From Clostridiales bacterium (GTDB taxonomy: Bacteria > Bacillota > Clostridia > Christensenellales > Pumilibacteraceae), in the NCBI GenBank assembly GCA_022508365.1, contig JAFLVH010000002.1, positions 1 through 64,000 of the forward strand: a stretch of DNA of 64,000 nucleotides, written 5' to 3'. Shown piece after piece: positions 874 through 61,406 of this stretch. Each line of letters starts with the position of its first letter. Position 1 is the first letter of the stretch. The translations under genes and the position numbers were made by a program. The notes below the pieces were generated by a model, which searched no databases, was not told the origin of the DNA, and was given only the letters and a program-made list of their open reading frames with translations.

Positions 874-1419
874 TTAGTCGGCGAGTTCGGCAGAGACCGT
901 AATTTCGTAATCCTGATTCATTTCCGCAACAGCCGCCGCGCCCTTAGCATCGGAAACTAAAATAATGTTAATTGTAACAGTGCCCGATGATGCAAGAGCC
1001 GCTAATTCCACAGAACCTGTAAATGCCGTCCAACCGGAAGGAGTGCCTGTTCCGGTAGGCGTAGAAACACTGGCACCAATTTGATAATAAAGCGGGAGGT
1101 CTTCGCCGTCTGTCAACTCCATCGAGAAAGTATAGGTGCTCGCGGGTGCTCCTCCAGTATATGTCACAGTGTATGTGTGCATTAGCGCCATTGAGGCTTC
1201 CAGATAACCAAATTCTTGGTTATACGGCACTAAAGCTTTTTCAGCATTTTCAGGTGCAAATGCTAATGTACCTGCAGTTGTTGTGATTGAGCCGGTAGTA
1301 CCAGAACCGGTAGCATCCGATACATCACCTGCTTCCCACGCTGCAAACGAGACCGCGCCAATGCCGGCAATAGCGGCAACAGAAGCCGCAATTACAAGAG
1401 ACTTAATAGTCTTTTTCAT
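874..1419 (-). CDS. TasA/camelysin-like secreted protein with SipW-type signal peptide (paralog 1)
   Basis: MKKTIKSLVIAASVAAIAGIGAVSFAAWEAGDVSDATGSGTTGSI..., N-terminus shared with two adjacent paralogs; SD AAAGGAG. Confidence 0.7.
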   Translation of the reverse strand: MKKTIKSLVIAASVAAIAGIGAVSFAAWEAGDVSDATGSGTTGSITTTAGTLAFAPENAEKALVPYNQEFGYLEASMALMHTYTVTYTGGAPASTYTFSMELTDGEDLPLYYQIGASVSTPTGTGTPSGWTAFTGSVELAALASSGTVTINIILVSDAKGAAAVAEMNQDYEITVSAELAD

Positions 1420-1552
1420 AATTTTGTTTTCTCCTTTAAATAATTTTTTGATTATATTATTTTTACATTTCGATACCCTGCTATCAAAATGGAAAAATCA
1501 ATGAATTGTTTAGATTCCCCGACTACGCTTGAAATGTCAAAAGATTAACAAA

Positions 1553-2074
1553 TTATGCATTAGTTGCCGATGCGGAGAATGTCAATTTGATTTGGCCACC
1601 CATCATATCATAATTAGTGGCACCTTCACCATTTGTAAAGAAAACATAAATAGTAGCTGAACCACTTGACAAAGTGATTTCCTGTGCTGTTGCAATATCT
1701 TGTTTGGAAGAAGGCGCTGCGCCATTAGGCTGTTGTGTGGAATAATAAATTACACCATCGCCAATTGCTTTACCGCTGCTGCCAGCCTCATACTCTCCTT
1801 TTAACGTAACAGTTTGATCGCCATTACCCTCAACAGTTACAGTAAAAGTCCAATAAGTGGTATAAGAGCCGCCCTGGTCAACCGGATACAATGCACTTAA
1901 GCCTGAGTCAGGAGAAACCGACAATGAACCTATAGTGTTAATTGACCCGGTATTACCTGTAACGGTTTTGTCGGCTACTGAGCCTGCACTCCATGCCGCA
2001 TAAGATACTGCGCCCACGCCTACTACTGCGGCTACTGCCGATGCTGTGATTAATGCTTTGACTGCTTTTTTCAT
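1553..2074 (-). CDS. TasA/camelysin-like secreted protein with SipW-type signal peptide (paralog 2)
   Basis: MKKAVKALITASAVAAVVGVGAVSYAAWSAGSVADKTVTGNTGSINTIG...; SD AAAGGAG. Confidence 0.7.
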   Translation of the reverse strand: MKKAVKALITASAVAAVVGVGAVSYAAWSAGSVADKTVTGNTGSINTIGSLSVSPDSGLSALYPVDQGGSYTTYWTFTVTVEGNGDQTVTLKGEYEAGSSGKAIGDGVIYYSTQQPNGAAPSSKQDIATAQEITLSSGSATIYVFFTNGEGATNYDMMGGQIKLTFSASATNA

Positions 2075-2175
2075 GATTTGTTTTCTCCTTTAAGAAAATT
2101 TTTTTAATTTTTTATTTTATTGGGCATCTGTGCCCATTAAAACCGTTGTGTGTAATCGCTTGCGCGACATTGAGA

Positions 2176-2712
2176 TTACGATGCATTAGCGGTGAACGTG
2201 AGCGATATGTCTTTATTCATGGCACTTGCGCTGTATGCCACCATACATACATACACGGTAGCCGAGCCGTTATTGAGAGTGATGTTTGACGTATCTATCG
2301 TCTCGGGTAGCCGCGTGCCAGGGCTTGCCGCCGTAGGTGCCGTATCCCCCACCTTGTAGTAGAGTTGTGCTACTTTGGCGTCGCAATCCATCGTGCCTTC
2401 CAATTTAACGAATACATCCCCCACGCTGCCGGTGAGCGAAACAGTAAACTGCCAATACTTGGTGCCGGTCACGTCGTTGTTGTCAATGGGGAGCAGGCTG
2501 TCCATCACTATATCTTTGGTTGTTGACGAACCCGACCCGCCTTTTTCAACCGTAACAGAAACATCTCCGACGGTGTTAATCATTCCTGTAGGGCCTTCAG
2601 CTGTAGCCGTGGAAGAACCACCGGCAGTCCACAAGGCATAAGACACTGCACCCACTCCGAATACAGCGGCTACTGCCGACGCGGCTATTAACATTTTGAC
2701 TGCCTTTTTCAA
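2176..2712 (-). CDS. TasA/camelysin-like secreted protein with SipW-type signal peptide (paralog 3, TTG start)
   Basis: MKKAVKMLIAASAVAAVFGVGAVSYALWTAGGSSTATAEGPTGMINTVG...; SD AAAGGAG upstream of TTG. Confidence 0.7.
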   Translation of the reverse strand: MKKAVKMLIAASAVAAVFGVGAVSYALWTAGGSSTATAEGPTGMINTVGDVSVTVEKGGSGSSTTKDIVMDSLLPIDNNDVTGTKYWQFTVSLTGSVGDVFVKLEGTMDCDAKVAQLYYKVGDTAPTAASPGTRLPETIDTSNITLNNGSATVYVCMVAYSASAMNKDISLTFTANAS

Positions 2713-2792
2713 GATTGCCGAAGCTCCTTTAGAGAATAATTACTTGTTGTTGTCTTGCTGTTGTTTACCGTCTACTCGCCCGACGAGGATTA

Positions 2793-5700
2793 CTACCAAG
2801 AGAAAGTACTATTAATGGCAAGCCAGTAGTATGTATCATTGTATTTGTACCCATTAAGAGCTTTACTACTACTTGCAGTTTGGGATGCGATTGTACAAGA
2901 TAAGTTTCCGGTTTGTCCGGTGTTCCAAGCAGTTCCTCCAGTAAAGATTGCGCCAAATGTTTGCTGTCCAACTGTTGATGAACTACCCAATGACCCGACA
3001 CCACCATAATCGTAACCATTGGTATTGAATAGATAGATACCTTGTGCACCAAAAACATAGAGTGTAGTAGAGTATGATGTGCCACTACGCGTAATCGTGT
3101 GCGTCTTATAAGAAGAATTATTGCCCTTAATATTGGAAGCTAAATTGCTAATCGCGACAGAGTAAGAATATATTTTGTATCCGTATGTTGCGTCAAGAGT
3201 TGGCGTTAGGTTACTTAACACTATATCATTAGTCTGCAAATCGCCTATTCGTACTATCATTCTGTCAACATCACCAAACGAAACACTCGATTTTACCAAG
3301 CCGGTGTTATTGCCATATCTTACATACGGGTCACTATCCCAAGCGGTAACTGCATTGTCTGTTGACAGGTTCCATAAATGCAATTTGAAAGTAGAATAAT
3401 TATAAGAGGTAGCACCAGTAAGTTTTATCCAGACGACGCCATCATTTGCAACCGCCATCAACGAGCCTTCCGTCGAGTTAGATGTTACGGTGGCCTGCAA
3501 ATCTTTTACGTGCTTGTAAACAACATAGAGGTTGTTGCCACTACGATAGAAAGTATAGTAACCGGATTTTACGACAGTGACGGTATTTGAGCTCACTGTT
3601 AAGAACGAGTTCAAGCCGGACGAAACGCCGTTAATGCTTTGCAAGCTGATAGTTTGCACTGTCGCAGAATTGCCATAGTAAATTCTGAACTGCAGATCCG
3701 CTTGCAGATATAGATTTTTAAGCTCATACTGACTATTGACATAGCTCATTGCAAATCCGTCGTCGGTATAAACGAACGAGTTATCGCTTCTATACGACAC
3801 AACAACACGATATACTCCGGTATTAGTGGTGTTAGCATTTTGAGTCCAGCCGTCGTCTATGTTACCAGTCATTGTGGCATCTAAGCACCAGGAAGTAGGA
3901 CTACTTACACTCTGTTTAAGGACAAACTTATACGTAGCATTGACCGTTGCCGTCAGTGTAGCACCGCCGCTCTGTTTCAATCGACTGCTAATGTTAATCG
4001 CAGGATAGCTGCCGATAGCGGTGTATGTTATATCTGCCTTATCTGAATCAATGAACTTAAGAGTTTCTCCTGCCGTAAGCGAAATGTTTGTGAGCTCATA
4101 TTGAACAACTGTAGCGTCGGATTGCGTAGTCGACTTAGTGAAAGCGATTGACGCTCCTTTGTAAACCAATTGAGGCGGATCCGGCTCTTTTGCCTCTTCA
4201 TAATGTGCTATCAGTGTGACATCACTTGTAATATTTTGATTATTGTACTTGGCGCCGTTGTAATACCAGCAATCAAAAGTATAACCGGTTTGGTTAGGCG
4301 TAGGCGCATTGTCCGCACTAAGTACAGACTCGGGTATAGGAGTACCGTCCGGAACTAATGTTGTATGCTCGGTAGTGCCGTCCGACCAGGCGCCGTCGCC
4401 GGCGTTGAGCGTGACGGTGTGGATATCGCTTGCATAGCTTATAATAAGGTCGTCAATTAAGAAGTTGGAAGGCGCAAGCGCATACCATCCATTAGCATTG
4501 GTTATATTAGAGGGTTTGTTAGCATCCGTATATTGCGCCGGTGTTTTTGTTTTGTCTTTAATATTTACATACCATACGCTATTACCTGATTTATAAGGAA
4601 CGGCATTACCTCTGAGTATGAATGTATACTCACCGTCCTTGGGAATATAAATATTCATATCCGCTAAGCCGGATACTGCGGCATTAACGTTGAAATACGG
4701 TGTATTACTGTCGTACAAACCGGCAGGAGCGGTAATATTTTTGGGCACAAAGTATGCGGTTTTCGCTTTGTTCCCATCCTGCTGGCGCTCACCGGTACTG
4801 TCAAGCATATAAGGCTTTACGATAGTGCCTGCCGTCAAGCTGACGGTAAGCGAGTACTCTATCGGCTTGTTCGGATAGTATACGCCGTCAGGGTCGGTAG
4901 AGACGTCTCCGGCACCTGTGATTACGGGCGTACCTTCCATCTTAAGCGTTCTGCGCGGGTCCCACGTCCAAACGCCGTTGACAAGTCCGCCCATGTAAAA
5001 GCCCCAAGCCGAACCGTAACCCTGCTCGTAGCGCTGCCAATGGTTTATGTTGCTGGCGGTGGCCTTTAGGTAGAATGTACCTGCATTGCCTTGAGTTACG
5101 ATAGTTATATCCAATGCAAAATACTGCTCTTCATAATCGCCGAAGAACAACACGCAGTACATTCCGTCCTCATAGTACTCGTCGACATAATGACTATCGT
5201 TTGTGCCCGAAAGATTTCTGGGTATGTAGTTGATGCCGCTGAGAGTCGTCGCAGAGCCGTACAATTTAGGCGCACTGACTTCGCCGTCCGACGGATTGCC
5301 GTCCTCGTCCGTGGCCGTACGGGAAACGTCAAAGCTGACAAGCGGAGTGTTGTTGTTAGTAATAGGATTGCCTGAAGCGTCCACAATCTGGAATATCAAA
5401 AAGCATATTGTGTTGTCACTGGTCGTGTATTCCGAGCTTGCTCGTGACACGGCAACATAAGTCGTATATGTATAATTAGTGCCGTTATTGGTGGCATACA
5501 TAGTAGCAGCATTTCGAATAGCCTTGTCATCATTGGTGCTTTGTTTTGATCCGTCAAACGAAGTCGAGCCAAACGCAACCGGTTCCGCAAGCTTTTTAGG
5601 ATAATATTTTCCACCGGATTCGAGTGTTACTGTATTTTCTTCGTCGGGCATATATAAACCAAGACTCAAATCGTATGTCTGATTGCTCCAAGTCGATGAA

Positions 5701-6539
5701 CTGGCAAAAATTACTCTTGTGGTAGTGGCTTTGCCCACAACAATGGTTTTCCCGTTTGCCGAAGAATAAAGCGTGGGAGTTCCGGAACTGGTGATTCCAC
5801 TTCCATTGATAGTGCCGTCTGTAGTTTGATATCCAGATGTAGAATAATACACTGTATCCTTATTATCACTGTTCTTTTCGAAAATAAAAATATAAGGCGT
5901 GTAATTACTGCTGTAAATATTTAAAGTTCTGACAACCGAATCACCGCTAAACTGCACTTTGAACGAATATTTTGTTCCTGTGGTACTGGGAGCAGTATAT
6001 GAGGATGAATATTCGACATACATCGAATTATATTCATACTGATAATGAAAAGCATAGTAACCGGTAGCAGTCACCTTACCTGTACCGGCGGTCTCACTGA
6101 CTATCGAAAACTGTGATGCGTTGCCAACTGTATATGTATCTTTGTACAAAGTCTTTAGAGGTGTTGCACCATTATATATTTGAAAAACTGTATTCGCTTG
6201 TAAATATACAGTATATAATGTTACTTCTTTGTTATTTGATTTAGGGGTTGGACTTTCTACCATCTTATAGTAGTCGGACATATCATTGGCTTTTCGTATT
6301 TGCAAATAATATGCTCCGCTTTCCAAAGTGGGCATTATTATATTACTGCTGCCATTATTATAGACTTGCTGCGGATAGCTGACATAGAACTGATCGGAAC
6401 TGCTATCTGTGACTTCTACTTCGGCACTTTCGGTTGAAGTCCACTTTGCCCAAGACACGGAAAAAGCGGCGATACTTAGCAGTATCGCGCACGCAAACAT
6501 CGCAAATATAACAAATCTAAAACGATGTGTCCGCTGCAT
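2793..6539 (-). CDS. Large secreted surface protein (1248 aa) with SipW-type N-terminus, internal duplication and an InlB-B-type repeat
   Basis: N-term MQRTHRFRFVIFAMFACAILLSIAAFSVSWAKWTSTESAEVEV; repeat VTLNAGDGAWSDG...TGYTFDCWYYNGAKYNNQNITSDVTLIAHYEE; SD GAGGG; upstream promoter. Confidence 0.8.
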   Translation of the reverse strand: MQRTHRFRFVIFAMFACAILLSIAAFSVSWAKWTSTESAEVEVTDSSSDQFYVSYPQQVYNNGSSNIIMPTLESGAYYLQIRKANDMSDYYKMVESPTPKSNNKEVTLYTVYLQANTVFQIYNGATPLKTLYKDTYTVGNASQFSIVSETAGTGKVTATGYYAFHYQYEYNSMYVEYSSSYTAPSTTGTKYSFKVQFSGDSVVRTLNIYSSNYTPYIFIFEKNSDNKDTVYYSTSGYQTTDGTINGSGITSSGTPTLYSSANGKTIVVGKATTTRVIFASSSTWSNQTYDLSLGLYMPDEENTVTLESGGKYYPKKLAEPVAFGSTSFDGSKQSTNDDKAIRNAATMYATNNGTNYTYTTYVAVSRASSEYTTSDNTICFLIFQIVDASGNPITNNNTPLVSFDVSRTATDEDGNPSDGEVSAPKLYGSATTLSGINYIPRNLSGTNDSHYVDEYYEDGMYCVLFFGDYEEQYFALDITIVTQGNAGTFYLKATASNINHWQRYEQGYGSAWGFYMGGLVNGVWTWDPRRTLKMEGTPVITGAGDVSTDPDGVYYPNKPIEYSLTVSLTAGTIVKPYMLDSTGERQQDGNKAKTAYFVPKNITAPAGLYDSNTPYFNVNAAVSGLADMNIYIPKDGEYTFILRGNAVPYKSGNSVWYVNIKDKTKTPAQYTDANKPSNITNANGWYALAPSNFLIDDLIISYASDIHTVTLNAGDGAWSDGTTEHTTLVPDGTPIPESVLSADNAPTPNQTGYTFDCWYYNGAKYNNQNITSDVTLIAHYEEAKEPDPPQLVYKGASIAFTKSTTQSDATVVQYELTNISLTAGETLKFIDSDKADITYTAIGSYPAINISSRLKQSGGATLTATVNATYKFVLKQSVSSPTSWCLDATMTGNIDDGWTQNANTTNTGVYRVVVSYRSDNSFVYTDDGFAMSYVNSQYELKNLYLQADLQFRIYYGNSATVQTISLQSINGVSSGLNSFLTVSSNTVTVVKSGYYTFYRSGNNLYVVYKHVKDLQATVTSNSTEGSLMAVANDGVVWIKLTGATSYNYSTFKLHLWNLSTDNAVTAWDSDPYVRYGNNTGLVKSSVSFGDVDRMIVRIGDLQTNDIVLSNLTPTLDATYGYKIYSYSVAISNLASNIKGNNSSYKTHTITRSGTSYSTTLYVFGAQGIYLFNTNGYDYGGVGSLGSSSTVGQQTFGAIFTGGTAWNTGQTGNLSCTIASQTASSSKALNGYKYNDTYYWLAINSTFSW

Positions 6540-6562
6540 TTTCCCTCTATGCTACTCCCATC

Positions 6563-6585
6563 ATACTTAGATGTATGGTAAGTAT
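6563..6585. promoter_or_regulatory. Candidate operator, inverted repeat ATACTTA-N9-TAAGTAT overlapping the -10 box
   Basis: Perfect 7-bp arms at 6563-6569 and 6579-6585. Confidence 0.4.
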
Positions 6586-6609
6586 AGCAAATATGTGTAT
6601 ACATGTCAA
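6581..6609 (-). promoter_or_regulatory. Promoter of the 1248-aa gene: TTGACA-17-TATACT
   Basis: Minus strand TTGACA (6604-6609), 17-bp spacer, TATACT (6581-6586). Confidence 0.7.
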
Positions 6610-6654
6610 TACCCTGTGAAAATTTTTTTAGAAAATTTCCACAGGGTATTGACA
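6604..6654. repeat. 51-bp near-perfect inverted repeat between signal peptidase and 1248-aa gene
   Basis: TGTCAATACCCTGTGAAAATTTT / GAAAATTTCCACAGGGTATTGACA, one mismatch by eye. Confidence 0.85.
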
Positions 6655-6669
6655 ATTAAGAATTATGAA

Positions 6670-8349
6670 TTAACTTAGTCTGTTGAGTATCTTTCTGTCG
6701 GCCTCTATGCGCTGCAGCTGACGGATAGAGCTTTCGCGGGCTCTGGCAAGCTTTTGCTCGTTTAGATACAATTCCCTGTCCTCGGGTGTGAGCGAATTTA
6801 GAAAAGCTTCAAGCTCTTGCTTTCTGCGTTCCGCAGCCGCCTTGCGCTTGGCTTTCTGCTCGTCCGTGAGCGGCTTTCTTTCGCGCTTTTTAGGCGGATT
6901 CATGGATTTGTATTCCGCCACCTTGAGCTGCTCCTCCGCAGTGAGCGGCGAAGTCTCGCTAAGCAAGGTCCTAAGCCGCGCCACGCGCCTTAGCTCTTTT
7001 TCCAGCATCATCTCGCGATAGCGCAAGTATGCTCGATGCTTTTGCTCGCCGTCCTCGTCCGGCTTTGTCGTGGCAGCCTGGCCGAGCTGTTTGGGCGTCT
7101 CGGGCGTAGATGACGGCAACGCCTGCTGACCCTGCGCTTGCGCTCCGCTGCCGGTCAAAAGTTCCTGCGGGCCGAGCTTTACGTTCGGCTGAGGCAGTTC
7201 CGGATATTCCACGTTCTTCTCCAGCGGCTGACCCTCGAAAAATTCGGGAACCGCCGGCATGCTCGTTATGCCAATCGCCTCTATATTAGGCGCTATGTCC
7301 GAATTGATCCTAACGCCCTGCTGACACAATATTATGCCGTCCCGAGTATTGACGGGTGTCAACAATATGTTCTTGCCGCCAGACATAGTCGTAAGCACCA
7401 GCGTTTGCCCGTCCTCCGCCTGTCTGAGCGTAGCGCCTGCTGCAAGCGCCGCCGCAAGCGATCCCGGGGTATCCGGCGCGGGCAGACTGTCCAGCATTGC
7501 CGCGGTCTCCGGCGTTTGCGGCAACTCCAGACTGGATGCGCGAATAAACGCGTTAAGCCGTTCCACCAGTTCCTTGTTTTCGGCATGTGTCTTGGGCTCT
7601 TCCGTTACCATACCCAATACGTCCATGACCGCCGTAATCTCGTGAACGTTATCGTACCTTAAACTTACGTTGCCCAAAGCCTCGTTGCTCTTTTTGAGCG
7701 CGGCGGTCTCCAATGCTTTGCGTTGTTCAGTGTTGTTTATGTAGCGTATGATTATCCACGCCACAACCACTATGAACAATGCGAATATCAGCACGCTCGC
7801 GCCTATCGACGATGCGAAAAACCCGAACAGCGCGCCGAAAAATCCCGCCTTTTTACCTGTGTATATACCTACAACGTCGTCCCACGTCGGCTTGACTCCG
7901 TCCACGCCTGCCGCATTGTCGCCGCGCGTCGTGAACACAGTTTTGCCGTTCTCCGTAGATATGGCGACTACGCGGTGAGTCAACAGAATGGTCTCTCCAT
8001 TCGCGTTTTTCGCCTTGAACGTGATTATCGTTCCGTCCTTGGCGTCTTGAGAGCTGCTCGCCTTAATCGCTTTTACGTCCGTCGGCTTTTTGCCCACGAT
8101 CATGCTTCCCTTGGGTATAGTAGGCTCCATGGAATCCGACACTATCGAAAACAACCGATAGTCGCCAAACGTCGTGTAGTAGTTGTCCATGAACATAGAC
8201 AGCACAGCGTTGAGTATGAGCACAACCAAAATTACGACCAGCAAAACTACGCCGGCTATGCTGAAACCACGCTTCAACTTACTACGTTTTTTTGTAGGCT
8301 GCTGCGCGGCAACCTCCCCCGTTTCGTTCTGTTGCACTTCATTTTCCAT
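6670..8349 (-). CDS. SipW/ER-type signal peptidase I with long charged cytoplasmic C-terminal tail
   Basis: SIVSDSMEPTIPKGSMIVGKKP (Ser), ILLTHRVVAI (His instead of Lys), TTRGDNAAGVD, C-terminal TM, then ~330 aa charged tail. Start placed at ATG 8349; the track's TTG at 8388 is the -35 hexamer. Confidence 0.85.
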   Translation of the reverse strand: MENEVQQNETGEVAAQQPTKKRSKLKRGFSIAGVVLLVVILVVLILNAVLSMFMDNYYTTFGDYRLFSIVSDSMEPTIPKGSMIVGKKPTDVKAIKASSSQDAKDGTIITFKAKNANGETILLTHRVVAISTENGKTVFTTRGDNAAGVDGVKPTWDDVVGIYTGKKAGFFGALFGFFASSIGASVLIFALFIVVVAWIIIRYINNTEQRKALETAALKKSNEALGNVSLRYDNVHEITAVMDVLGMVTEEPKTHAENKELVERLNAFIRASSLELPQTPETAAMLDSLPAPDTPGSLAAALAAGATLRQAEDGQTLVLTTMSGGKNILLTPVNTRDGIILCQQGVRINSDIAPNIEAIGITSMPAVPEFFEGQPLEKNVEYPELPQPNVKLGPQELLTGSGAQAQGQQALPSSTPETPKQLGQAATTKPDEDGEQKHRAYLRYREMMLEKELRRVARLRTLLSETSPLTAEEQLKVAEYKSMNPPKKRERKPLTDEQKAKRKAAAERRKQELEAFLNSLTPEDRELYLNEQKLARARESSIRQLQRIEADRKILNRLS

Positions 8350-8359
8350 AATTGCTAAT

Positions 8360-8388
8360 ATTATACCACCGTTACTATTGTATGTCAA
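8360..8388 (-). promoter_or_regulatory. Consensus promoter TTGACA-17-TATAAT, 10 nt from ATG of the signal peptidase gene
   Basis: Minus strand TTGACATACAATAGTAACGGTGGTATAATATTAGCAATTATG. Confidence 0.85.
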
Positions 8389-50013: not shown

Positions 50014-53000
50014 TTACTTATACGTCTTGCTCGGACTGACATTCGGTGACGTTATGTTAAACGTAACTAGCTCATACGTGTTGCTGCCTTTTGTAATTTT
50101 GTATCTGCAAATCGAACCGGACGAATACGACCACCACAAATTGTCTGTTTGGTTAGTCCAACTATTTACTCCGGCGGTGAAGATTACTTTTATTCCTCCC
50201 CATTCATTTGCCGTTAGCTTAGATACCGTCGACGGATTTACAGGACCGCCGGGCGTGGGTTCCGGTATTTCAAAGTAGTATAAACCACCTATCCCGTACA
50301 TGAACATATAGCCGGTCAATCCGTTTCCGTAATCTATCGTTAACTTGTGGTAATTATCAACAGTAATATCTGCGAGCGTGGCGGTATATTCCTTAGTTGC
50401 ACCTAGAGTCAATCCGCTAACCTTGACTTGATAACGCGAAATCTCGTTGCGAGTGCCCTTTTCGTCATGAGTAAAGATTATATCGGTAATTCCGGCATTA
50501 GAGATATCGAAATAGTATTTACCGCTACCCATGGATGTCAAAATGTCGCGCGTACTCCATCTATTATCGTCCGCACCCGTACCGGTAACAGTACCAACGC
50601 CTGTGCCGCCCCAAGCATGAATGTGGTAATCAAATGTAGTACCGGTACCACCCCAGCCGGACGCATTAAGCACTATGCGCACCCTTGCCGCCTTATAGCG
50701 AGCGTAGTACGTCACGTCGGCGCCGTTGACAGTAACGGAGGTTGCCGTAAGCTTTGTGCCGCCGGTCTGGGCGTCGTACCAACCGTCAAAGTCGTACAAT
50801 GCGTTATTCGGAGTCGGATCCTTAGGCACGTCTACAGAATCACCGTTCTCGACATCTGTAAATGTATAGGTTGCGCCCGAGGCAGCCGTACCGTCGCCCA
50901 ATACAAACGTAACATTAAATGTGTTCTTTACAAACTTACCGTACAGCTTAATAGCGACTTTGCTGTCCATGCCTTCGAACAAATCTTTAAACTTAAGTTC
51001 GGTGTACTTTGTACCGTTGTATTCGCCGTCCGTGTACCAACCGTCAAACAAGTAACCGGTCTTTACTGGTGTCTTTAATTGCGTACCGTCGTATTCAATC
51101 GTAAAGATAGTGATGTTGCCGACGGAATTATCCTTGCTGCCGTCCACATAGTATTCGACCGTGTAGGTTATAACGTTCCACTTGGCATACAGCGTGGTGC
51201 CGTCAATCGGCATTGTGTCTGTATCAAAGTCCCAAGGCGTAGTCAGCGAGGACTCCTTGTACCAGCCGCCAAAGGTGTAACCGTCTTTGGTCGGTACATT
51301 CGGCTCCTCCACGAGCGCATTATAATCGCCTGTAAAGTCGTTTACGTCACTTCCGCCCATGCTATCGAACTTGACGGTATACTGATTAGGCGTCCACTTG
51401 GCGTACAGCGTTATATCGTCTGTAACCTTGTCGCCGTTTTCGCCGAAGGTCCATACGTTGCTTAGCGCAGCGTCCTTATACCAACCGTCAAACCTATAAC
51501 CGGCTTTGGTCGGTGCGGTGGGCGCGGAGATTGTTGTGTTGTAAACAACGTCGGTGATTTCCGCTACGTCGCTGCCGCCGTTACTGTTGAACGATACGGT
51601 GTACTTGTTGGGTATCCACTTGGCATAGAACTCGGTAGGCATGCCTTCCGCTGCTGCCGCAAATGTGTATTCAACGCCGTCGCATTCCGCATTGGTAAAC
51701 CAACCGCCGAACTCATAGCCGTCGCGGCTTACCTGAGGCGGAGTGGGCGTCTTGCCCATCTGAACGTTTAGCGTGGAGAACGTGTCTGTTCCGTCGTTGC
51801 GGTAGAACTTGAGCTCGACCGTAGGAACGGCTGCCACGTGCGCGTAAAGCGTTATATCGCCCTCAACCGTAATCTGACCTGTGACGTAAGCGGTATTATC
51901 GCCGTTAATCTCAAGCGTCCAACCGAGGAAGATGTAAAGCTTGTCGGTGAGATTGGTAACAGTCACCTGCGGCAGAGTGAACTTGGAGCCGTACGGCATG
52001 TCTACGATAGTTTCACCGTCGATTGTTGCGGTATACTCCGCACTTTCGCCAAGCACAAGCGTGATCGTGTAATCTACAGGCGTCCAGGTGGCGATAAGCT
52101 CCATATCCTCGGTCACGCCGGTGCCGAAGTCCCAAGCCCTGCCATTGTACTGCCAGCCGCCCAATGTGTAGTGTTCACGACTTACCGTAGGTTGGGTTAC
52201 CGTAGCGCCCAGTGTGGTTACGGAAACGGTAGCGGAGCCCGTAAGCGTACCGCCGTTTGCGTTGAACGTGACGGTAAGCGCGCCGAGCGTAATGGTGAAC
52301 TCGGCAGTCTGTCCGCCAAAGCCGATGGTTACGGTGGCGTTGCCCGCCCTGGTGTTGTCTACGTCTATCGTGTAGCCTGTAACAACGGCATTGGTGTCGT
52401 TGTTGTAGTATGCGGTTACGGTAATGCCGGTCTTGGTAATCTCCTGACCTATCTTGTATGTGGGCATGCCGTCATGCTTGACGTCAAGTCTCGTCACGGA
52501 GGGCGCAACTATCGTAATCTTGAACTTGCCGGTCACGCCGTTATACGACACGGTTATTTCCTGCTCGCCGAGGCGCGTCATGTCTATGGCGCTCAGAGTA
52601 AATTCGGTAACGGCGGTAGGCGCAACAGGCGTGGCGCCCTCGACGCCCTCGTTGTAGTTGGCGGTAACGTCGATAAGCTTAGCGAGGTCCGGAGCCGCCG
52701 CGTCCTGCACAAACTCGAGCGTTTCGCCGGACTTGGCAACAGCGGTGAGCGACGTCATTACGTTGTTTACGGTAATCTGATACTCGCCCGACTCGTTGCC
52801 ATTGTACAAGACCTTGACGGTATAAGTGCCTGCGGTAAGAAGCTTGCCGCTTGTTTCGCCCGTGCAGGTGTACGTGATATCCGTGGTCTTTTCCACCTTT
52901 CCGTTGTTGTAGGTAAGCGTAACTTCCGCGCCGGTAAGCACAATGGCGTCGCCAACGTTGTACGTCTTTTTGCTCGGATCGGTCGTAAGCTCTGTCTTTT

Positions 53001-56000
53001 CCACAGCAAGCGCCACAGCCGTGTAGTTAAAGTTCACTACGGTGTTGCCGCACACAACCTTAATTGTGTTTTCGCCGAGCGTTGCCGCTTTGCTTTCAAC
53101 ATAGTTAATGGCGCTGTTATCACTTGCGGTAAGGTCGCTTGCGGTGAGCTTATCGCCGACCACAATCTTGGCCTTTTTGCTGGTGACGGTTATTTCCTTG
53201 TGCTGCACTGCGGTAAGCTTGTTGCCGCCCAAATCAACCACAAGGTCGTAGAATCCGCTCGTGCCCATGAAGGTTATGTTACTACCGGAGGTTGAGATAT
53301 TTACAGTAACCGCCGAGGAAGTCGGATTGAGTGATCCCGACGAAATTCCGTACCACGAACTTCCCTTCATAACCTTGAACGTATCGTACTTGGCGAGGTA
53401 TACGTAGGTGAAGTAGTACTTATTTCCGTTGACCGCAGTCAACATCATGGTGCTGACGTCGGACCACGCGCCGCTGTCATTCCATCCGTTGAACGAACCT
53501 TTTATGAAGACAGTACCTTTATCCGCCGTCCATTTGCCTGTGGTATTGGCAGTGCCGTCGGGATAACGAGGTGTATCGGAAGGCCGTGCGTATATTTGAG
53601 TGGTTTCAATCTCCAATGTCCATTTTACGTCGGCGACGTTAGCGGAAAGCACGCTTACTTTATACATGTAACCGTTGTCATCCTTTTCCGCAACGAATTT
53701 AAGATCGGTTGTTGCCGATATCTCCGACGGAGAAGTATAAGTTGCCAAATTGGCGTTAGTCGGCTTTATGTCACTACTGCCGTTGCCTTGTGCGTCATAC
53801 TTGGCGATATAGAAGATTGCGTTTTTATCCAGCGTTATTCCGTCTACAATATACACAGTGCGGCTGTAATCGTTCGTACCCACTGTAACCGCAAACGCCT
53901 GTACAGTCTGCCAGTTGTCTGTGGTGTAGCGCATAAACCAGCCGTTCTTGGGATTGGCGGTCCACTGCGCGACAAGCGTGATATTGCCTGTGACGGGTGT
54001 AGCAAAGCTGTACTTGGCTCCGTTAAGATACCAACCGACAAAGTCGTTTCCGGCAAGCGTCGGATTCTTAGTGGGCTGAGCCACGGGTTTTCCGTACTCT
54101 ACCTGAACGGTAGCCTGAGTGCCTGTAGCAAGCGTGCCGCCGTTGGGATCGAAGGTTACGGTGTACAGATTGGAATAGTGCGCGGTGACCGTCAGCGTCG
54201 TGCCGTTAAGGCCGTCGAGCAGGTCGGAGGTTACGGAGGTTATCTTTTCGTCTCCGCAATACCATTCTGTAAAGTAGTAACCGTTTGCTCTGCCCGTGGC
54301 GTTGATGGTGACCTGCTCCTTAGTGGGCAGTGTCGCAACCGTCGAGGCAAGGTTTTGTATGGTAAACGTCTTGCTCGCTATAGTCTCGCCGTAAGCGCCC
54401 ATGTCGTACGCAAGCGTGTATTCCACAAGGGTCCAGGCGGCGTACAGATTGATAGCGGTGCCGCTTTCCGGTATAGCGTCGATAAGCGCGGTAACCTTTT
54501 TGCCGCTCATGCTGCCGACATGCCAGCCGTCAAACGCGTAGCCGATCTGAGACATAACCTTAAGCGTATCATCTTGCACCGTAACGTCGTACGAAGTGAT
54601 ATTGCCTGCGGTGTTGTCAACTTTGTCGTTTATATAGTACGTGACGATATAAGTGATAAGCTCGTATTTGGTGTAAAGCGTGACATTGCTTGTTACTGTA
54701 TCGGACGCAAAGTTCCACTGCTTTTCCTGTTCTTCGACCATGTAGAACCAGCCGAGCAACTTGTAGCCCGTCTTAGCGTCGAGCGTGGGCTCTTCCAGCT
54801 TGGAGCCGTGCGTCACGTCGGACTGGGTCTTCACAACGCTCTCTCCGTTCTTAAACGTGACGGTGAACTTTTGGATATCCCATTTGGCGTAAAGCTCGAT
54901 ATCGCTCGTAACCGTATCGGTCTCGAAGTTCCACGGCGTCCGGAACCCGTTGTCCTTGTACCAGCCGCCAAAGGTGTATCCCTCATACGTAGGATCGGTA
55001 GGCTTTTCTATTGTGGAGCCGTGCTCAACTTCCGTATACGGATCGACATCCGAGCCGTTGAACGTCTCAAACGTGACGGTGTACTTGTTGATTTCCCAAC
55101 CGGCAAACACCTCGCAGCCCTCTACCATGACCGGGAAGGTATACTTATTCTCTTCGGTGAAGTTGTCCTTGTCGGTGAACCAGCCGAGGAACTTGTAGCC
55201 TTCACGCTCGGGCGCGGGGCTGTACGCCTTGCCCGCCGTACCTATAACCACCTTTTGCACATGAGTCTCGGGCGTTTCGCCGTAGTTGAAGTTGAATGTG
55301 AGATCTACGGTTTCGTTCTGTTCTATTCTTGCATAGAACTCTTTGGCTCCCGTGCTGCCTTTTGCTATAGTTGTAATAGGCGATCCGGAGAACTCTTGAT
55401 CCTCGTACCAACCAAGGAAGGAGTAACCGCCTTCGGTTACGGTGGGATCGGGCAGCGTTACGGCGGTTTCAACCGTGTATTCTACGGGCGCAGTGGGCGC
55501 GGTTGCCAAAGCGGTATCCACAACGTAGGTAATTTTGTATTTTATCACTTCCCACTTGGCGGTGAGCGTAAAGTCTTCAGTAACGGGAGTGCTGAATACA
55601 TACTTCTCGACCGCGTCACCCTTGAACCAGCCTAAGAAGGTATAGCCCTTGCGCGTAACCTTGTTGGACTCAGGCTGAGATACAGTGCTGTTGTAGTTGA
55701 TATACTGGGTTTCGGTCTTGCCGTCGTAATTGTAATCGAGGATGACCGTGTAGCTGTGTATGGTGTAGTCGGCTATAAGCTCCAGATCCGAAGTGACAGG
55801 CGTATTAAGATTGAAGATAGTCGTTCCGTTCTTCCAACCGTTAAAGTCGTAACCTGTCTTGGTCGCGGAGGGAACCTTACCGGAAGGAATGGCCGTGTTG
55901 TACGGCACCTTTAAGGTCTCCTTTGTCACACCGTCGACAATAAACTTGACGGTGTACTCGTGGACAGTCCACTTGGCTTTGAGCACGATTGGCTCGTTGA

Positions 56001-59000
56001 CATCGGTATCAAACTCATACTCGGTGGTTTGCATTACGCCGTTCACCACCAAATACCAACCGCCGAAGTCGTGACCCGTCTTGGTCGGGTTGTTAGGTCT
56101 ATTTGCCTGCTCGCCGTAAAGCGGATGCTGAGTATCGACGCTTGTGCCGCCGTCGCTGTCGAACGTGACCGTAAGATCCTTAACCTTAATCGTAAACGTG
56201 GTATCCTTGCCGCCGTACGATACGGTTATGGTCTTGTCGCCCACGCTGTTGGTAGAAGTGCCGTCAAGCGTGTAATCGGTTACGGTATAGCTCTTGCCGT
56301 CGCTGTCGGTCACGGTAACCACCATGCCGGCATCGCTGAACGTTTCGCCGCGCCAGTACTCGGTCTTGGAAGGCTGTGTGGTGACCTTGACGGTTGTAAT
56401 TGTGGGCGCCTGCCATTTGACTATCTTAAGCGTCCTTGTAGCGCCGTTTACAAATATAATGTCGTAATAGCCGTTTTCTATGCCGCCGAGGTACAGGTTG
56501 CCTTCGTCGCCGTTATTGCCCAGGGTGATTACGGTGTTCAATCCGGTGAGCTCGCCGCCGAACCAGCCCTTGTCGTCGGTACCGACTTGCACGCCCTTGA
56601 CGTAAATCTTGAACGCGTCGCCCTTCTTGAGGTAAACCTTGCGGAATGTGTACTCAGTGCCCGATTTAAGCACGGTCAAAAGCGTGCTGCCGGACGACCA
56701 TTCCTTAAACAGCCCAAACTCGTCGGTGAACGAGCCGCGGATATAAACCTCCGCCGTAGCCGCATTTTCATTGGTATAGGTTGCGGCATTGCCGTCAGTG
56801 GGATTGCGCAGCTCCTTGGTGTATTCTATAGTAACACCAAAGCTTATGCCCCAGCAATCCTTTGTTTCGTCGTTAATATCGCCGATGTACAGCGTCCACT
56901 TGGCGCCGGTGTACATTTCGTTGTAGGCAGTGACTTCAAAGTTGTAGTTGTCGCCGTCTTTCTTGCTGCCGACAGTAAGAATATTCTTAAATGTATGCTG
57001 GGTAACATTGCTTGCCGCATGATACCATGTTTCTTCGCCGCCGGAGCCATACGTGACAACGATAAACTGCATGCCCTTACTCAGGGTTACGCCTTCTACC
57101 TTCCATTCGTTCTTGTCGCCGTTCTTTACGGCAGTGTATCCGGCCGTCCAAGTCTTGCCGTCCTGCGAGTAGTACAGGAACGTTCCGGTTCCGACTTTGC
57201 TCTCCCATTGCGCCGAAAGCTTAATGTTGCGAGTGATTGCCGTCGTAAGCTCAAACTTATTTCCGCTCTCGTCGTTCCACTGTACAAACGTCCAGTCTTT
57301 GCGCGTGGTGTTGACCTTGCTTGCGTCTATCTTTTCGCCGTGCTTGACGGTTTGCGCTGCAACAGCGGTGCCGCCGTTGGCGTTGAACTCGACTGTGTAC
57401 TCGTTGAGTTCCCAATCGGCAGTCAACCACATCTCGCGAACAACGGGATCTCCAAAGTTCCAAGGCGTGCCGTTCTTTAAATTCCAGCCTTTAAGGGTGT
57501 GACCAACCCACGTGATTCCGGTGGGCTCACTTGCGGTCTTGCCATGCTCAACGGTTTGGTCATCGGCTTTGCCTGTGCCGCCGTTCAAGTCGAAGTGTAC
57601 GGTGTACTTGTTGATCACCCACTTTGCATACAGCGTGATATTGCCGGTTACAGTGTCGGTCTCGAATACCCACTCTGATGTGAAATCTTCCCTGTACCAG
57701 CCCATAAAGGTGTACCCTTCCAGCGTGGGATCGTTGGGCTTGTTTGTAATCTTGTTGCCGTACAAAACCTTGATTGCATCAACGCCGCTGCCGCCCATGC
57801 TGTTGAACTTGACGGTATATTCCTCAAGCTCCCACTTGGCATACAGCGTTACGTCCTTGGTGGGCTTTTGTCCGAATCCGTCATAGGCGATAGTTTCGTC
57901 TTCCACATACCAGTGGATAAATTTATGACCCGTCCACGTGGGCGCTTCTATAGCCTGAACGGTCTGTTCGGAAGTAAAGTACCGTTTTTGATTTTCTTCA
58001 CCGTTGCCCAATACAAACGTGATGGTGTACGTAATCGGATCCCACTTGGCAAAAACGGTGGTTTCTTGCATTATATCCTGATCGAACGAGAACAGGTTTT
58101 TGCACTCTTTTTCCTTGTACCAGCTTATAAAGGTATAGCCGGTGCGGCTGGGCTTATACGGGCTTGTTATGCGAGTGCCCTGCACCACGTATTCTTCGTG
58201 GTTTTGTGCGCCCTCGTAGTTTAGGTTGTAAATAAACTTGACCGTAGAGTTTCTGGTTATCTGCGCATAGAAGATTTGGTCGCCCATTGTGCCTGCGGCG
58301 ATGCTGCTGATGCGCTCACCCGTGTAGTCTCTATTATTGTACCAGCCTATAAAGGTATAGCCCGGTTCGGTTACGTTAACGCCCGGAAGAGTAAATTCTT
58401 GATTGTAGATATACTCGCCTTCGTCGACGGCGTCGGCAAGGCCGGTATCCACAACGTACGTAATCTTATAATGCTTGGCGTTCCAATGCGCCTCGAGCGT
58501 GATAAGACCTTCGCGCTCTACCAACTTCTCCTCGAATTTCCAAATGGTTTCGCGGTCGAGCATGTGCCAGTGCAGGAAGTCATAGCCGGGTTCTTCGGGA
58601 TCGCTCGGCTTATCCGTAATAAGTCCGCCGAATTTTACCGTGGCAGTATAATATGCGACGGTATTTGCGTCTACGTAGTGCAATACGTACTTAATGGTAA
58701 CGTCCTTGGCTTCCCACTTGGCGGTGAGAGTAAGCCCCTCGGTTTGAAGCGTATCTTGATTGAATATCCATTCGTCTTCGCCGTTGAACCAACCTTTAAG
58801 ATTGTAGCCGTATTTGGTAACGGTAACCGTGGGCGCAGGAACTTTTTCGCCAAACGCGACAGTCTGGCTTGTCACCGCAGGCGTGCCGCCGGCAGTATCA
58901 AACGTAACGGTGTATGTTTTGGCAGTCCAATGCGCGGTGAGATTGAGCCCTTCTGCGTCAAGCGGCTGAGTGGAGCTCCATTTTTCGCCTTCCTCGGTGA

Positions 59001-61359
59001 ACCAACCGTCAAATCTGTATCCGGTTTTTTCGGGATCGGCGGGAATCTTTTCCGCGGCTATAACAGCGCCGAATTTTACTTTAACGGTGGTAGACTGTCC
59101 GCCGTTGTCGGGATTGAACACAACGTCAAACTCGGCGGCTTCCCAGTGCGCTCTGAGCGTAAGGTCCTCTTTTTCCAGCTTGTCGCACAGTTTGTCGGCA
59201 AAAGTCCACTTCGTGCCGTCAATCCTGTACCAGCCCAGGAACGTATGTCCGAGCTTTGTGGGCTCCGACGGCTCGGGTACCGCTTGGTCGAACGGAACCT
59301 CTTCGGTTGTGGGATCACTGCCGTTGTCGGCGTTGAATATAACTGTTATGGTCTTGGCGGTCCACTTGGCATAAACCACGGTGCCGTCTGCGGTGATAGG
59401 CTCGTCAAACTTATACTCTGTAGTGCAATCTTGTTCCTTGTACCAGCCGCCGAAGTTGTAGCCTATGCGCGTGGGATCGGGATTCATGCGCGTAGCGGTT
59501 TTGCCCTCCATCACTTTTACGTCAACGGTTTTGTTGCCGTAGTTGTAATCGAAGGTAAACGTGTACGTCGCCTTTGCGTCGATATACGCATAGAGCGTAT
59601 AATCGCCGATAGAGCCGTGCTCTATGGTGACAACCTTGTGTTGCTCGTCATAGACCTTTTGGTCGTCCTCGCCCGTGCCCACTTCGGTGTACCAACCGAT
59701 AAAGTTGAATCCGTCCTTAATATTTGTGGGATTGGGCAGCGTGATGGTGTCGTCTTCTATCGTGTACGTGCGGTTTGCGGGTGCGGTTGCAAGCGCAGCG
59801 TCCACAATGTATGTAATGTGGTACTCTATTATATTCCACTTGGCGGTGAGCGTTATATTGCCGGTAATGGGCGTAGTGTCAAAGTCAAACGCGTCATTTG
59901 CGTCGCTTTCAAACCAGCCGAGGAAGGTGTAGCCCTTGCGCTCGGCAAGATTGGGCTTTTGCGCGCGCGCGTTTTTGTTTACGGTTTGTTGCTGCGGCGC
60001 GGCAATTCCGTCCACACCGGTTATAAACTTGACGGTATATTTAACCTGAATTACACGAACGGTAAACGGCTCGGCATTAAAGCCTCTGTACGAAATTACA
60101 ATTGTGCATGTGCCCTCTTTGCTGCTGTCAAAGCCGCCCACCGTGTATTCCGTAACCGGAATTGAAATGTTGTTTTCATACTTGGCGGTGACTATCATGC
60201 CGGTGCGGTCAAACTCGTCGCCCACCTCGTATTCGGTCCTAGTCGGCATATGGGTCACTTCTATGCCGATAAGCGTTGCGGCTTGTACCTCGACTTCAAA
60301 TGTATCGGTCTCGCCCTGATACTCGACGGTGACGGTCTGCTTGCCCGTTGTGTGGCTGTTGTAGCCCGTGACGTTGCAGTCTTCTATGTCTATTATTTCG
60401 TCCGTGTCGTCCGTATAGTACGCGGTAACCTCTATTCCGTCGAGGTTGAGATTTTCGCCCTCTATATAATTCTTTTTGGTAGGCTCTTTCGTAATTTCTA
60501 TGCGATCGAGCGTGCGCAAGGGCTCCGAGGGAGCAACGCTGACGGTAATCGTGGGGGTGACGGTGATTGTGCCGTTGTAGGTAAAGGTTATTACGGCGTT
60601 ACCCGACACGGTGAACTTGCCGTCGGCGTCGAGAGCGGGGCTGGTAAATGTGATTAAATCGGTGGATATAGCTGCGGGCTCGCCCACGTTGTAAGTGGCG
60701 GTAAAGGTAAGTCCCGCCATGTCAAACGCGTCGCCTACCTTAAACGTGCCGCTCGGCGTGCCGGAAACAGCTACCGACACGACCTCGCGCGCCAGCACTT
60801 CTACGGTAACCGGCTTGCTCTTGCCTTGGTACTTGACGTTTACGACCGCCGCGAGATTGGGCTCGGAAAAATCATACTCGACTTGGTAATCGGTAATCAC
60901 TTCCTTATCGCCGTTGTCGTACACGGCTTTTACCACCATACCGGTTTTGTCGAACGTCTCCCCTACATAATATGTCTTAGTGGTAGGCTGTTCGGCTATC
61001 TCTATGTCGGTGAGAATGCGACCGTCGGGCTTTTCAGTCCACTGCGCATACAGCTTTAAGTCGCCGGTTATAGTTTTGGCAAACGCATATTCGTTGGCGC
61101 CCGCCGTATCCGTGGTCCACTTGCTAAAGTCATACTTATCGCGCGTGGGATCCGTAGGCTTCTTTGCGGCGGTGTTTTGCTTAACCTTATCGGTACGGTA
61201 AACACCGTTATCCGGCGCACCGTCATAGTTATAGTAATATGTGACGGTGTAGGTCTTGTCCTTGTTGTCAAGTTGAACCTTAGAGCAAGCAAGAACGGTG
61301 CCGACGGTCATAGCCAAAACGGCAATAATAAATAATAACCCTATTTTCCTTCTCATCAT
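50014..61359 (-). CDS. Giant putative lipoprotein (~3780 aa) with ~30 InlB-B/Listeria-Bacteroides-type repeats, Ig-like domains and carbohydrate-binding-like modules
   Basis: MMRRKIGLLFIIAVLAMTVGTVLACSKV lipobox; repeats of GYTFxGWYxxxxxxxxxxFxTxVTxxxTLYAKW; Big_3-like PTKTxYxVGDxFDxTGMxVTAxY. Start at ATG 61359 because the track's TTG overlaps SD GGGGG. Confidence 0.9.
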   Translation of the reverse strand: MMRRKIGLLFIIAVLAMTVGTVLACSKVQLDNKDKTYTVTYYYNYDGAPDNGVYRTDKVKQNTAAKKPTDPTRDKYDFSKWTTDTAGANEYAFAKTITGDLKLYAQWTEKPDGRILTDIEIAEQPTTKTYYVGETFDKTGMVVKAVYDNGDKEVITDYQVEYDFSEPNLAAVVNVKYQGKSKPVTVEVLAREVVSVAVSGTPSGTFKVGDAFDMAGLTFTATYNVGEPAAISTDLITFTSPALDADGKFTVSGNAVITFTYNGTITVTPTITVSVAPSEPLRTLDRIEITKEPTKKNYIEGENLNLDGIEVTAYYTDDTDEIIDIEDCNVTGYNSHTTGKQTVTVEYQGETDTFEVEVQAATLIGIEVTHMPTRTEYEVGDEFDRTGMIVTAKYENNISIPVTEYTVGGFDSSKEGTCTIVISYRGFNAEPFTVRVIQVKYTVKFITGVDGIAAPQQQTVNKNARAQKPNLAERKGYTFLGWFESDANDAFDFDTTPITGNITLTAKWNIIEYHITYIVDAALATAPANRTYTIEDDTITLPNPTNIKDGFNFIGWYTEVGTGEDDQKVYDEQHKVVTIEHGSIGDYTLYAYIDAKATYTFTFDYNYGNKTVDVKVMEGKTATRMNPDPTRIGYNFGGWYKEQDCTTEYKFDEPITADGTVVYAKWTAKTITVIFNADNGSDPTTEEVPFDQAVPEPSEPTKLGHTFLGWYRIDGTKWTFADKLCDKLEKEDLTLRAHWEAAEFDVVFNPDNGGQSTTVKVKFGAVIAAEKIPADPEKTGYRFDGWFTEEGEKWSSTQPLDAEGLNLTAHWTAKTYTVTFDTAGGTPAVTSQTVAFGEKVPAPTVTVTKYGYNLKGWFNGEDEWIFNQDTLQTEGLTLTAKWEAKDVTIKYVLHYVDANTVAYYTATVKFGGLITDKPSDPEEPGYDFLHWHMLDRETIWKFEEKLVEREGLITLEAHWNAKHYKITYVVDTGLADAVDEGEYIYNQEFTLPGVNVTEPGYTFIGWYNNRDYTGERISSIAAGTMGDQIFYAQITRNSTVKFIYNLNYEGAQNHEEYVVQGTRITSPYKPSRTGYTFISWYKEKECKNLFSFDQDIMQETTVFAKWDPITYTITFVLGNGEENQKRYFTSEQTVQAIEAPTWTGHKFIHWYVEDETIAYDGFGQKPTKDVTLYAKWELEEYTVKFNSMGGSGVDAIKVLYGNKITNKPNDPTLEGYTFMGWYREDFTSEWVFETDTVTGNITLYAKWVINKYTVHFDLNGGTGKADDQTVEHGKTASEPTGITWVGHTLKGWNLKNGTPWNFGDPVVREMWLTADWELNEYTVEFNANGGTAVAAQTVKHGEKIDASKVNTTRKDWTFVQWNDESGNKFELTTAITRNIKLSAQWESKVGTGTFLYYSQDGKTWTAGYTAVKNGDKNEWKVEGVTLSKGMQFIVVTYGSGGEETWYHAASNVTQHTFKNILTVGSKKDGDNYNFEVTAYNEMYTGAKWTLYIGDINDETKDCWGISFGVTIEYTKELRNPTDGNAATYTNENAATAEVYIRGSFTDEFGLFKEWSSGSTLLTVLKSGTEYTFRKVYLKKGDAFKIYVKGVQVGTDDKGWFGGELTGLNTVITLGNNGDEGNLYLGGIENGYYDIIFVNGATRTLKIVKWQAPTITTVKVTTQPSKTEYWRGETFSDAGMVVTVTDSDGKSYTVTDYTLDGTSTNSVGDKTITVSYGGKDTTFTIKVKDLTVTFDSDGGTSVDTQHPLYGEQANRPNNPTKTGHDFGGWYLVVNGVMQTTEYEFDTDVNEPIVLKAKWTVHEYTVKFIVDGVTKETLKVPYNTAIPSGKVPSATKTGYDFNGWKNGTTIFNLNTPVTSDLELIADYTIHSYTVILDYNYDGKTETQYINYNSTVSQPESNKVTRKGYTFLGWFKGDAVEKYVFSTPVTEDFTLTAKWEVIKYKITYVVDTALATAPTAPVEYTVETAVTLPDPTVTEGGYSFLGWYEDQEFSGSPITTIAKGSTGAKEFYARIEQNETVDLTFNFNYGETPETHVQKVVIGTAGKAYSPAPEREGYKFLGWFTDKDNFTEENKYTFPVMVEGCEVFAGWEINKYTVTFETFNGSDVDPYTEVEHGSTIEKPTDPTYEGYTFGGWYKDNGFRTPWNFETDTVTSDIELYAKWDIQKFTVTFKNGESVVKTQSDVTHGSKLEEPTLDAKTGYKLLGWFYMVEEQEKQWNFASDTVTSNVTLYTKYELITYIVTYYINDKVDNTAGNITSYDVTVQDDTLKVMSQIGYAFDGWHVGSMSGKKVTALIDAIPESGTAINLYAAWTLVEYTLAYDMGAYGETIASKTFTIQNLASTVATLPTKEQVTINATGRANGYYFTEWYCGDEKITSVTSDLLDGLNGTTLTVTAHYSNLYTVTFDPNGGTLATGTQATVQVEYGKPVAQPTKNPTLAGNDFVGWYLNGAKYSFATPVTGNITLVAQWTANPKNGWFMRYTTDNWQTVQAFAVTVGTNDYSRTVYIVDGITLDKNAIFYIAKYDAQGNGSSDIKPTNANLATYTSPSEISATTDLKFVAEKDDNGYMYKVSVLSANVADVKWTLEIETTQIYARPSDTPRYPDGTANTTGKWTADKGTVFIKGSFNGWNDSGAWSDVSTMMLTAVNGNKYYFTYVYLAKYDTFKVMKGSSWYGISSGSLNPTSSAVTVNISTSGSNITFMGTSGFYDLVVDLGGNKLTAVQHKEITVTSKKAKIVVGDKLTASDLTASDNSAINYVESKAATLGENTIKVVCGNTVVNFNYTAVALAVEKTELTTDPSKKTYNVGDAIVLTGAEVTLTYNNGKVEKTTDITYTCTGETSGKLLTAGTYTVKVLYNGNESGEYQITVNNVMTSLTAVAKSGETLEFVQDAAAPDLAKLIDVTANYNEGVEGATPVAPTAVTEFTLSAIDMTRLGEQEITVSYNGVTGKFKITIVAPSVTRLDVKHDGMPTYKIGQEITKTGITVTAYYNNDTNAVVTGYTIDVDNTRAGNATVTIGFGGQTAEFTITLGALTVTFNANGGTLTGSATVSVTTLGATVTQPTVSREHYTLGGWQYNGRAWDFGTGVTEDMELIATWTPVDYTITLVLGESAEYTATIDGETIVDMPYGSKFTLPQVTVTNLTDKLYIFLGWTLEINGDNTAYVTGQITVEGDITLYAHVAAVPTVELKFYRNDGTDTFSTLNVQMGKTPTPPQVSRDGYEFGGWFTNAECDGVEYTFAAAAEGMPTEFYAKWIPNKYTVSFNSNGGSDVAEITDVVYNTTISAPTAPTKAGYRFDGWYKDAALSNVWTFGENGDKVTDDITLYAKWTPNQYTVKFDSMGGSDVNDFTGDYNALVEEPNVPTKDGYTFGGWYKESSLTTPWDFDTDTMPIDGTTLYAKWNVITYTVEYYVDGSKDNSVGNITIFTIEYDGTQLKTPVKTGYLFDGWYTDGEYNGTKYTELKFKDLFEGMDSKVAIKLYGKFVKNTFNVTFVLGDGTAASGATYTFTDVENGDSVDVPKDPTPNNALYDFDGWYDAQTGGTKLTATSVTVNGADVTYYARYKAARVRIVLNASGWGGTGTTFDYHIHAWGGTGVGTVTGTGADDNRWSTRDILTSMGSGKYYFDISNAGITDIIFTHDEKGTRNEISRYQVKVSGLTLGATKEYTATLADITVDNYHKLTIDYGNGLTGYMFMYGIGGLYYFEIPEPTPGGPVNPSTVSKLTANEWGGIKVIFTAGVNSWTNQTDNLWWSYSSGSICRYKITKGSNTYELVTFNITSPNVSPSKTYK

Positions 61360-61406
61360 TACCCCCAAATATGTGGCGATATACGCACTTTCGGTTGATA
61401 TATTAT

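Follow-up and report, generated by a model that had tools for sequence, protein, structure and literature searches.

The first 64,000 nucleotides of contig JAFLVH010000002.1 (hereafter the window, meaning this whole stretch) carry a five-gene cassette, flanked by upp and secA and read from the minus strand, which encodes a signal peptidase, then a large secreted protein and then three small paralogous proteins. We read this cassette as a divergent, genus-restricted fibre system of the SipW/TasA type, with a probability of roughly two in three. The source genome, a 1.67-Mb metagenome-assembled genome from an uncultured clostridial genus, holds exactly three such small genes and one SipW-type peptidase. 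A first-pass annotation, made from the sequence alone, had described a Ser...His peptidase followed on the same strand by a 1248-residue protein and three proteins of ~175 residues, and the open reading frames were confirmed where it had placed them. Terminator-like hairpins flank the cassette at both ends, and its genes are as follows.

8349-6670, minus strand: signal peptidase gene, 559 amino acids (aa) from ATG; S26B, SipW-like
6539-2793, minus strand: large secreted protein gene, 1248 aa; SipW-type signal VSWA-KW
2712-2176, minus strand: small paralog 3, 178 aa; TTG start with AAAGGAG; proposed fibre subunit
2074-1553, minus strand: small paralog 2, 173 aa; proposed fibre subunit, modelled with AlphaFold2
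1419-874, minus strand: small paralog 1, 181 aa; proposed fibre subunit

The peptidase contains both catalytic motifs, SDSMEPTIP and LTHRVV, and in 17 aligned peptidase copies Asp72 and Ser73 are invariant and His125 nearly so; these data show an S26B enzyme of the endoplasmic reticulum (ER) type, with a Ser-His and not a Ser-Lys pair. Profile searching gives 72.4 bits with the ER/archaeal-type model TIGR02228, above its cut-off of 51.85, and the closest PDB relatives are the SEC11A and SEC11C subunits (E 3.6e-10). With the Bacillus SipW equivalog model NF046067 the score is 72.7 bits (E 2.8e-20), below the cut-off of 190; the enzyme is a relative of SipW, not the Bacillus equivalog. A C-terminal extension, described below, makes it about three times as long as B. 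subtilis SipW. A TTG at 8388 would lengthen the reading frame to 572 aa, and this TTG belongs to the promoter -35 box. Some members of the genus encode paralogous SipW-type peptidases with other C-terminal extensions (L053:11234-14738, L054:9827-11269 and L092:1-1824), and small genes with A-x-W signals adjoin those of L053 and L092.

The small and large proteins have in common signal peptides with an unusual A-x-W-type ending. The signal motif that the first-pass annotation had noticed in the three small proteins is not a matter of chance, with K6, A11, S24, A26 and W28 invariant in the 27 small proteins of the genus. Large proteins end their signal in A/C-x-W, and mature small proteins start with A/K-W, a few having other residues before the Trp.

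Linkage was followed through a genus sample of 20 genomes. Small genes occur in 17 of them and the large gene in the same 17 (16 found by search and G001 by synteny), both being absent from G006, G010 and G014. Peptidase and substrates lie on one contig in 12 genomes and are directly adjacent in 10; in G015 and G017 the contig ends where adjacency would fall, and in G013 it begins just before the large gene, where the peptidase may be off the contig. Two or three small paralogs are linked in most genomes. The setting is upp/secA in one species group and a PLD-family, cardiolipin-synthase-like gene in another, hence the cassette holds together independently of its neighbours, and because of these other neighbours in relatives the downstream secA was rejected as a part of the system. 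Phage origin was also rejected, the peptidase having no match among phage records. In G009 a 1478-aa BspA-type leucine-rich-repeat lipoprotein (L042:2202-6638) is inserted between upp and the peptidase.

The genes are separable, a gap of ~3 kb lying between peptidase and substrates in G019 and one of ~20 kb in G007, as would be expected if the enzyme were a general or alternative signal peptidase whose linkage is incidental. We consider this very improbable, as one canonical signal peptidase I is encoded elsewhere in the source genome (no match to a second SipW-type peptidase was found there), and as the peptidase copies of G006 and G010 have lost catalytic residues exactly where the substrates are lost. 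It should be noted that G006 and G010 are apparently sister lineages, which would bring the joint absences down to perhaps two independent losses. Linkage, common signal peptides and coupled loss thus make a dedicated SipW-type secretion of the small and large proteins well supported at the level of sequence, in line with the dedicated-looking substrates originally suggested.

Concerning the nature of the small proteins, only W2, L36 and P38 are invariant among the 27 mature sequences, and an L-x-P-x-[DN] box lies at positions 36-50 in 26 of them. In TasA the N-terminal strand is the donor strand and fibres polymerise by donor-strand exchange (PMC9674648), which makes the 'amyloid' label of the first-pass annotation unlikely to be the right word. 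Of the protomer interfaces in TasA and camelysins, the best conserved is the one in which the proline box around P62 touches A28/F29 (PMC10151520), and the TasA sequence (8aur) starts with A28-F29 and has its proline box at L60-K-P62-G-D. The N-terminal Trp and the L-x-P-x-D box of the small proteins correspond to the TasA donor-strand start and proline box, hence in the alignment conservation is concentrated on positions matching TasA-TasA contact residues.

The predicted fold points in the same direction. An AlphaFold2 model of mature small paralog 2, built with 27 relatives, is a beta-sandwich with a predicted local distance difference test (pLDDT) score of 83.2 and a predicted TM-score (pTM) of 0.77; its first ~20 residues have no strand, and residues 1-4 and 12-16 have pLDDT below 50. 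Foldseek against 350,542 PDB chains places the TasA fibre, 8aur_A, first with probability 1.00, followed mainly by CfaB, FimG, FimF, FimA and the Sulfolobus 0406 filament (7pnb), mostly strand-complemented pilins. The fold predicted for this paralog thus resembles that of TasA, with the modest scores given below, and linkage is conserved in related genomes, so that neither of the two findings that would have told against the first-pass annotation was obtained. Modelled fold and key contacts are those to be expected of a donor-strand subunit, without establishing that it shares an ancestor with TasA.

A fold of this kind does not prove polymerisation, and the small proteins might instead be SipW-processed but non-polymerising surface proteins of TasA-related fold, as monomers or oligomers (adhesins or cell-wall proteins of the camelysin kind), the large protein being an independent adhesin merely sharing the peptidase. 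B. cereus CalY acts as a surface adhesin before fibre formation (PMC13082335), and the small paralogs diverge strongly outside the interface residues, with a mean column identity of 30%. On the other hand, conservation is centred on precisely those residues through which TasA subunits touch, the best structural matches are mainly strand-complemented pilins, and the paralogs come linked in twos and threes in most genomes. On balance we hold the non-polymerising alternative to be unlikely, and the predicted fold and the conserved contact residues together support a putative fibre of TasA-like subunits.

The large protein would be the partner of this fibre. Its relatives span 757-2040 aa, and InlB-type B-repeats (PF09479) were found in 8 of 10 large proteins, with a best E of 6e-72; the window protein has one, which scores 27.7 bits against a cut-off of 27 (E 3.1e-6 with the region scanned alone).

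4203..4418, minus strand: InlB-type B-repeat (Flg_new) in the large protein, PF09479

CBM26 appears in several related large proteins, over the cut-off once (G011, 3.8e-7), and CBM20 matches are also present. No LPXTG or other anchor was seen in the window protein. Elsewhere in the window, 50014-61368 on the minus strand encodes a predicted surface lipoprotein of 3784 aa, in which 28 InlB-type B-repeats are accompanied by 8 Big_3 domains.

Several results weigh against a TasA-type fibre. The Foldseek match to TasA has a modest E of 2.4e-3 and TM-scores of 0.45/0.32. The shuffle test of the proline box, which looked for L-x-P-x-[DNE] within the first 75 residues and gave a mean of 0.49 against the 26 of 27 observed, counts homologous rows as independent and does not give a probability, and its pattern was picked with TasA already in view. 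Small proteins of the source genome have no match to PF12389 or TIGR04088, both of which matched the B. subtilis control; with the related TIGR04089 two small proteins reach an E of only 2.4. The small proteins have no match at all in Pfam and NCBIfam scans, a PDB sequence search with the small-protein profile found none, and hhalign of the small family with TasA alone gave no signal. For the large protein, there is a weak resemblance of the mature N-terminus to that of the small proteins (W...G; P 3.6e-4 and probability 37% in hhalign), and the possibility that its conserved core is a TasA domain was rejected, hhalign with the small family giving a probability of 0.4%. The model of the window protein is moderate (pLDDT 69.5) with no significant fold matches, the best weak ones including surface lectins and SusE/SusF, and no CBM26 was matched in it by the profile scan. 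Formal membership of the TasA/camelysin family therefore fails on sequence profiles; to judge from sequence and prediction, the system would still work like that of TasA. What stands of the TasA-like subunits claimed earlier is the predicted fold and the conservation of contact residues; what stands of the large anchor/adhesin is the InlB repeats and, in relatives, CBM26, its core domain having no profile similarity to the small family. Of the profile checks proposed with those claims, the one for a SipW-type peptidase succeeded with TIGR02228 only.

The CBM26 and CBM20 matches, together with SusE/SusF among the weak fold matches, could also indicate a starch or glycan adhesion system centred on the large protein, in which the small proteins serve as stalk or scaffold and not as biofilm matrix. 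This appears improbable, more so than the non-polymerising alternative, as CBM26 is found in few large proteins and not in that of the window, and InlB-type repeats are generic surface repeats. Glycan adhesion is in any case compatible with the fibre reading and not exclusive of it.

Taking the fibre reading as a basis, the following mechanism can be outlined. All four secreted proteins, small and large, would have their A-x-W-type signal peptide removed by the peptidase, as suggested by their common signals, linkage and coupled loss. A cleaved small protein would then present a free N-terminal stretch beginning at A/K-W, followed by a beta-sandwich carrying the L-x-P-x-D proline box. This stretch may insert into the next subunit as in TasA, to give a sortase-independent donor-strand fibre. 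TapA is thought to supply the first donor strand in the TasA fibre (PMC9674648, PMC10151520), and the large protein, which opens with a W...G stretch like that of the small proteins, might do the same here while displaying adhesive domains, namely InlB-type repeats and, in relatives, starch-binding modules. This role of the large protein as fibre initiator and adhesin is proposed by analogy, and of all the steps it is the one held with least confidence.

The peptidase itself has an unusual C-terminal extension.

6670..7710, minus strand: peptidase C-terminal extension (residues ~214-559), genus-restricted, predicted cytoplasmic, no Pfam match

Its ~345 aa lie downstream of the second predicted membrane segment and should therefore be cytoplasmic. 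The Pfam scan found no known domain in it, and 390 other genomes of the class hold no relative; in a draw of 391 genomes of the class the small family did not turn up elsewhere either, bar one weak partial match. The genomes of G006 and G010, which lack the cassette substrate genes, retain open-frame peptidase copies (L050:18028-19812 in G010; in G006 split over two contigs, L094:13730-14164 and L051:3-989). The catalytic His is replaced by Cys in both, and in G006 the catalytic Ser is also replaced by Thr. In G010 the catalytic domain is only 31-38% identical to other species, compared pairs among which show 51-74%, while the extension is 57-76% identical, the same as in other pairs. Between G006 and G010 the ratio of nonsynonymous to synonymous substitution rates (dN/dS) is ~0.15 for the extension and 0.13 for what used to be the catalytic part. 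The low dN/dS, a sign of purifying selection, and the retained open frames thus argue that these copies are not decaying pseudogenes, and conservation of the extension in inactive copies argues that its function does not need proteolysis.

These comparisons support a second, proteolysis-independent function of the extension, perhaps regulatory as for B. subtilis SipW, for which such a role was reportedly described (Terra et al. 2012). Going further, we would tentatively suggest a regulatory or sensory module coupling fibre secretion to a cytoplasmic output, in which case the sister species would have kept a pseudopeptidase after losing substrates, catalytic residues and leaderless promoter; this we think possible, at odds somewhat worse than even. 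The genus-restricted extension and the natural inactive copies are in themselves new points. G006 and G010 also carry a different SipW-type cassette (L069:560-7396 and L070:1557-8481), composed of a peptidase whose long N-terminus is rich in Lys and Thr, a 293-aa protein with the classical signal ending CGTTFAKY and a ~1245-aa membrane-anchored protein.

The expression signals of the cassette are as follows.

8360..8388, minus strand: peptidase promoter, TTGACA-17-TATAAT with TG extension; 12/12 consensus
6581..6609, minus strand: large-gene promoter, TTGACA-17-TATACT; 11/12 consensus; leader with GAGGGAAA
691..721, minus strand: terminator-like hairpin at the cassette end before secA, 13-pair stem and T-rich tail

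The -10 box of the peptidase promoter lies 10 nt from the ATG in the window and 7-10 nt in 15 genus genomes of the same architecture, which leaves no room for a ribosome-binding site, and a leaderless or near-leaderless mRNA is therefore predicted. In G006 and G010 the peptidase promoter lies instead ~60 nt upstream. The large gene has its own promoter and a leader of ~41 nt, a layout repeated for 13 large genes of the genus, and AAAGGAG sites precede the small genes. No Rfam family of structured RNA was matched anywhere in the window.

Among known systems the cassette can be compared first with B. subtilis tapA-sipW-tasA. Both link a dedicated Ser-His signal peptidase to secreted proteins and have no sortase, the modelled small-protein fold has its best match, a modest one, in the TasA fibre subunit, the N-terminal aromatic residue and L-x-P-x-D follow in the same order at similar spacing, and each has an accessory secreted protein (TapA there, the large protein here). 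Unlike that system, the present one has three paralogous subunits with no sequence-profile match to TasA, in place of TapA an accessory protein whose length runs from 757 to 2040 aa and which has InlB-type repeats and, in several relatives, CBM26, a peptidase with a ~345-aa, presumably cytoplasmic extension, and an uncultured clostridial host. The C. perfringens sipW-bsaABCRSD locus, whose BsaA forms SipW-dependent extracellular polymers as well as matrix of the pellicle (PMC7395162), also belongs to the class Clostridia and also starts with sipW followed by several secreted proteins, whereas here no two-component genes are linked in the cassette, one substrate is very large and adhesin-like, and the peptidase is extended. 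In B. cereus sipW-tasA/capP/calY, two TasA-like paralogs build heterofilaments and a SipW-processed accessory protein acts as chaperone (PMC13082335, PMC4292775). The multi-subunit logic is similar, but CapP has DUF4047 and QKKV/AEE repeats, and the large protein has other domains and no evidence of a chaperone function. Finally, the 0406 threads of Sulfolobus acidocaldarius are a donor-strand filament (PMC9715654) from a different domain of life, and their structure (7pnb) is among the top matches of the small 2 model.

The new parts are a genus-specific subunit family, a large partner of InlB/CBM26 type and an extended peptidase with inactive copies. If the fibre reading is right, SipW/TasA-type fibres would also occur in an uncultured clostridial genus, in a guise that escapes sequence profiles, and evolution would seem to preserve the TasA contact residues and not the sequence as a whole. 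With its extension kept where catalysis is lost, the peptidase would in turn be a natural experiment on the proteolysis-independent role reported for SipW.

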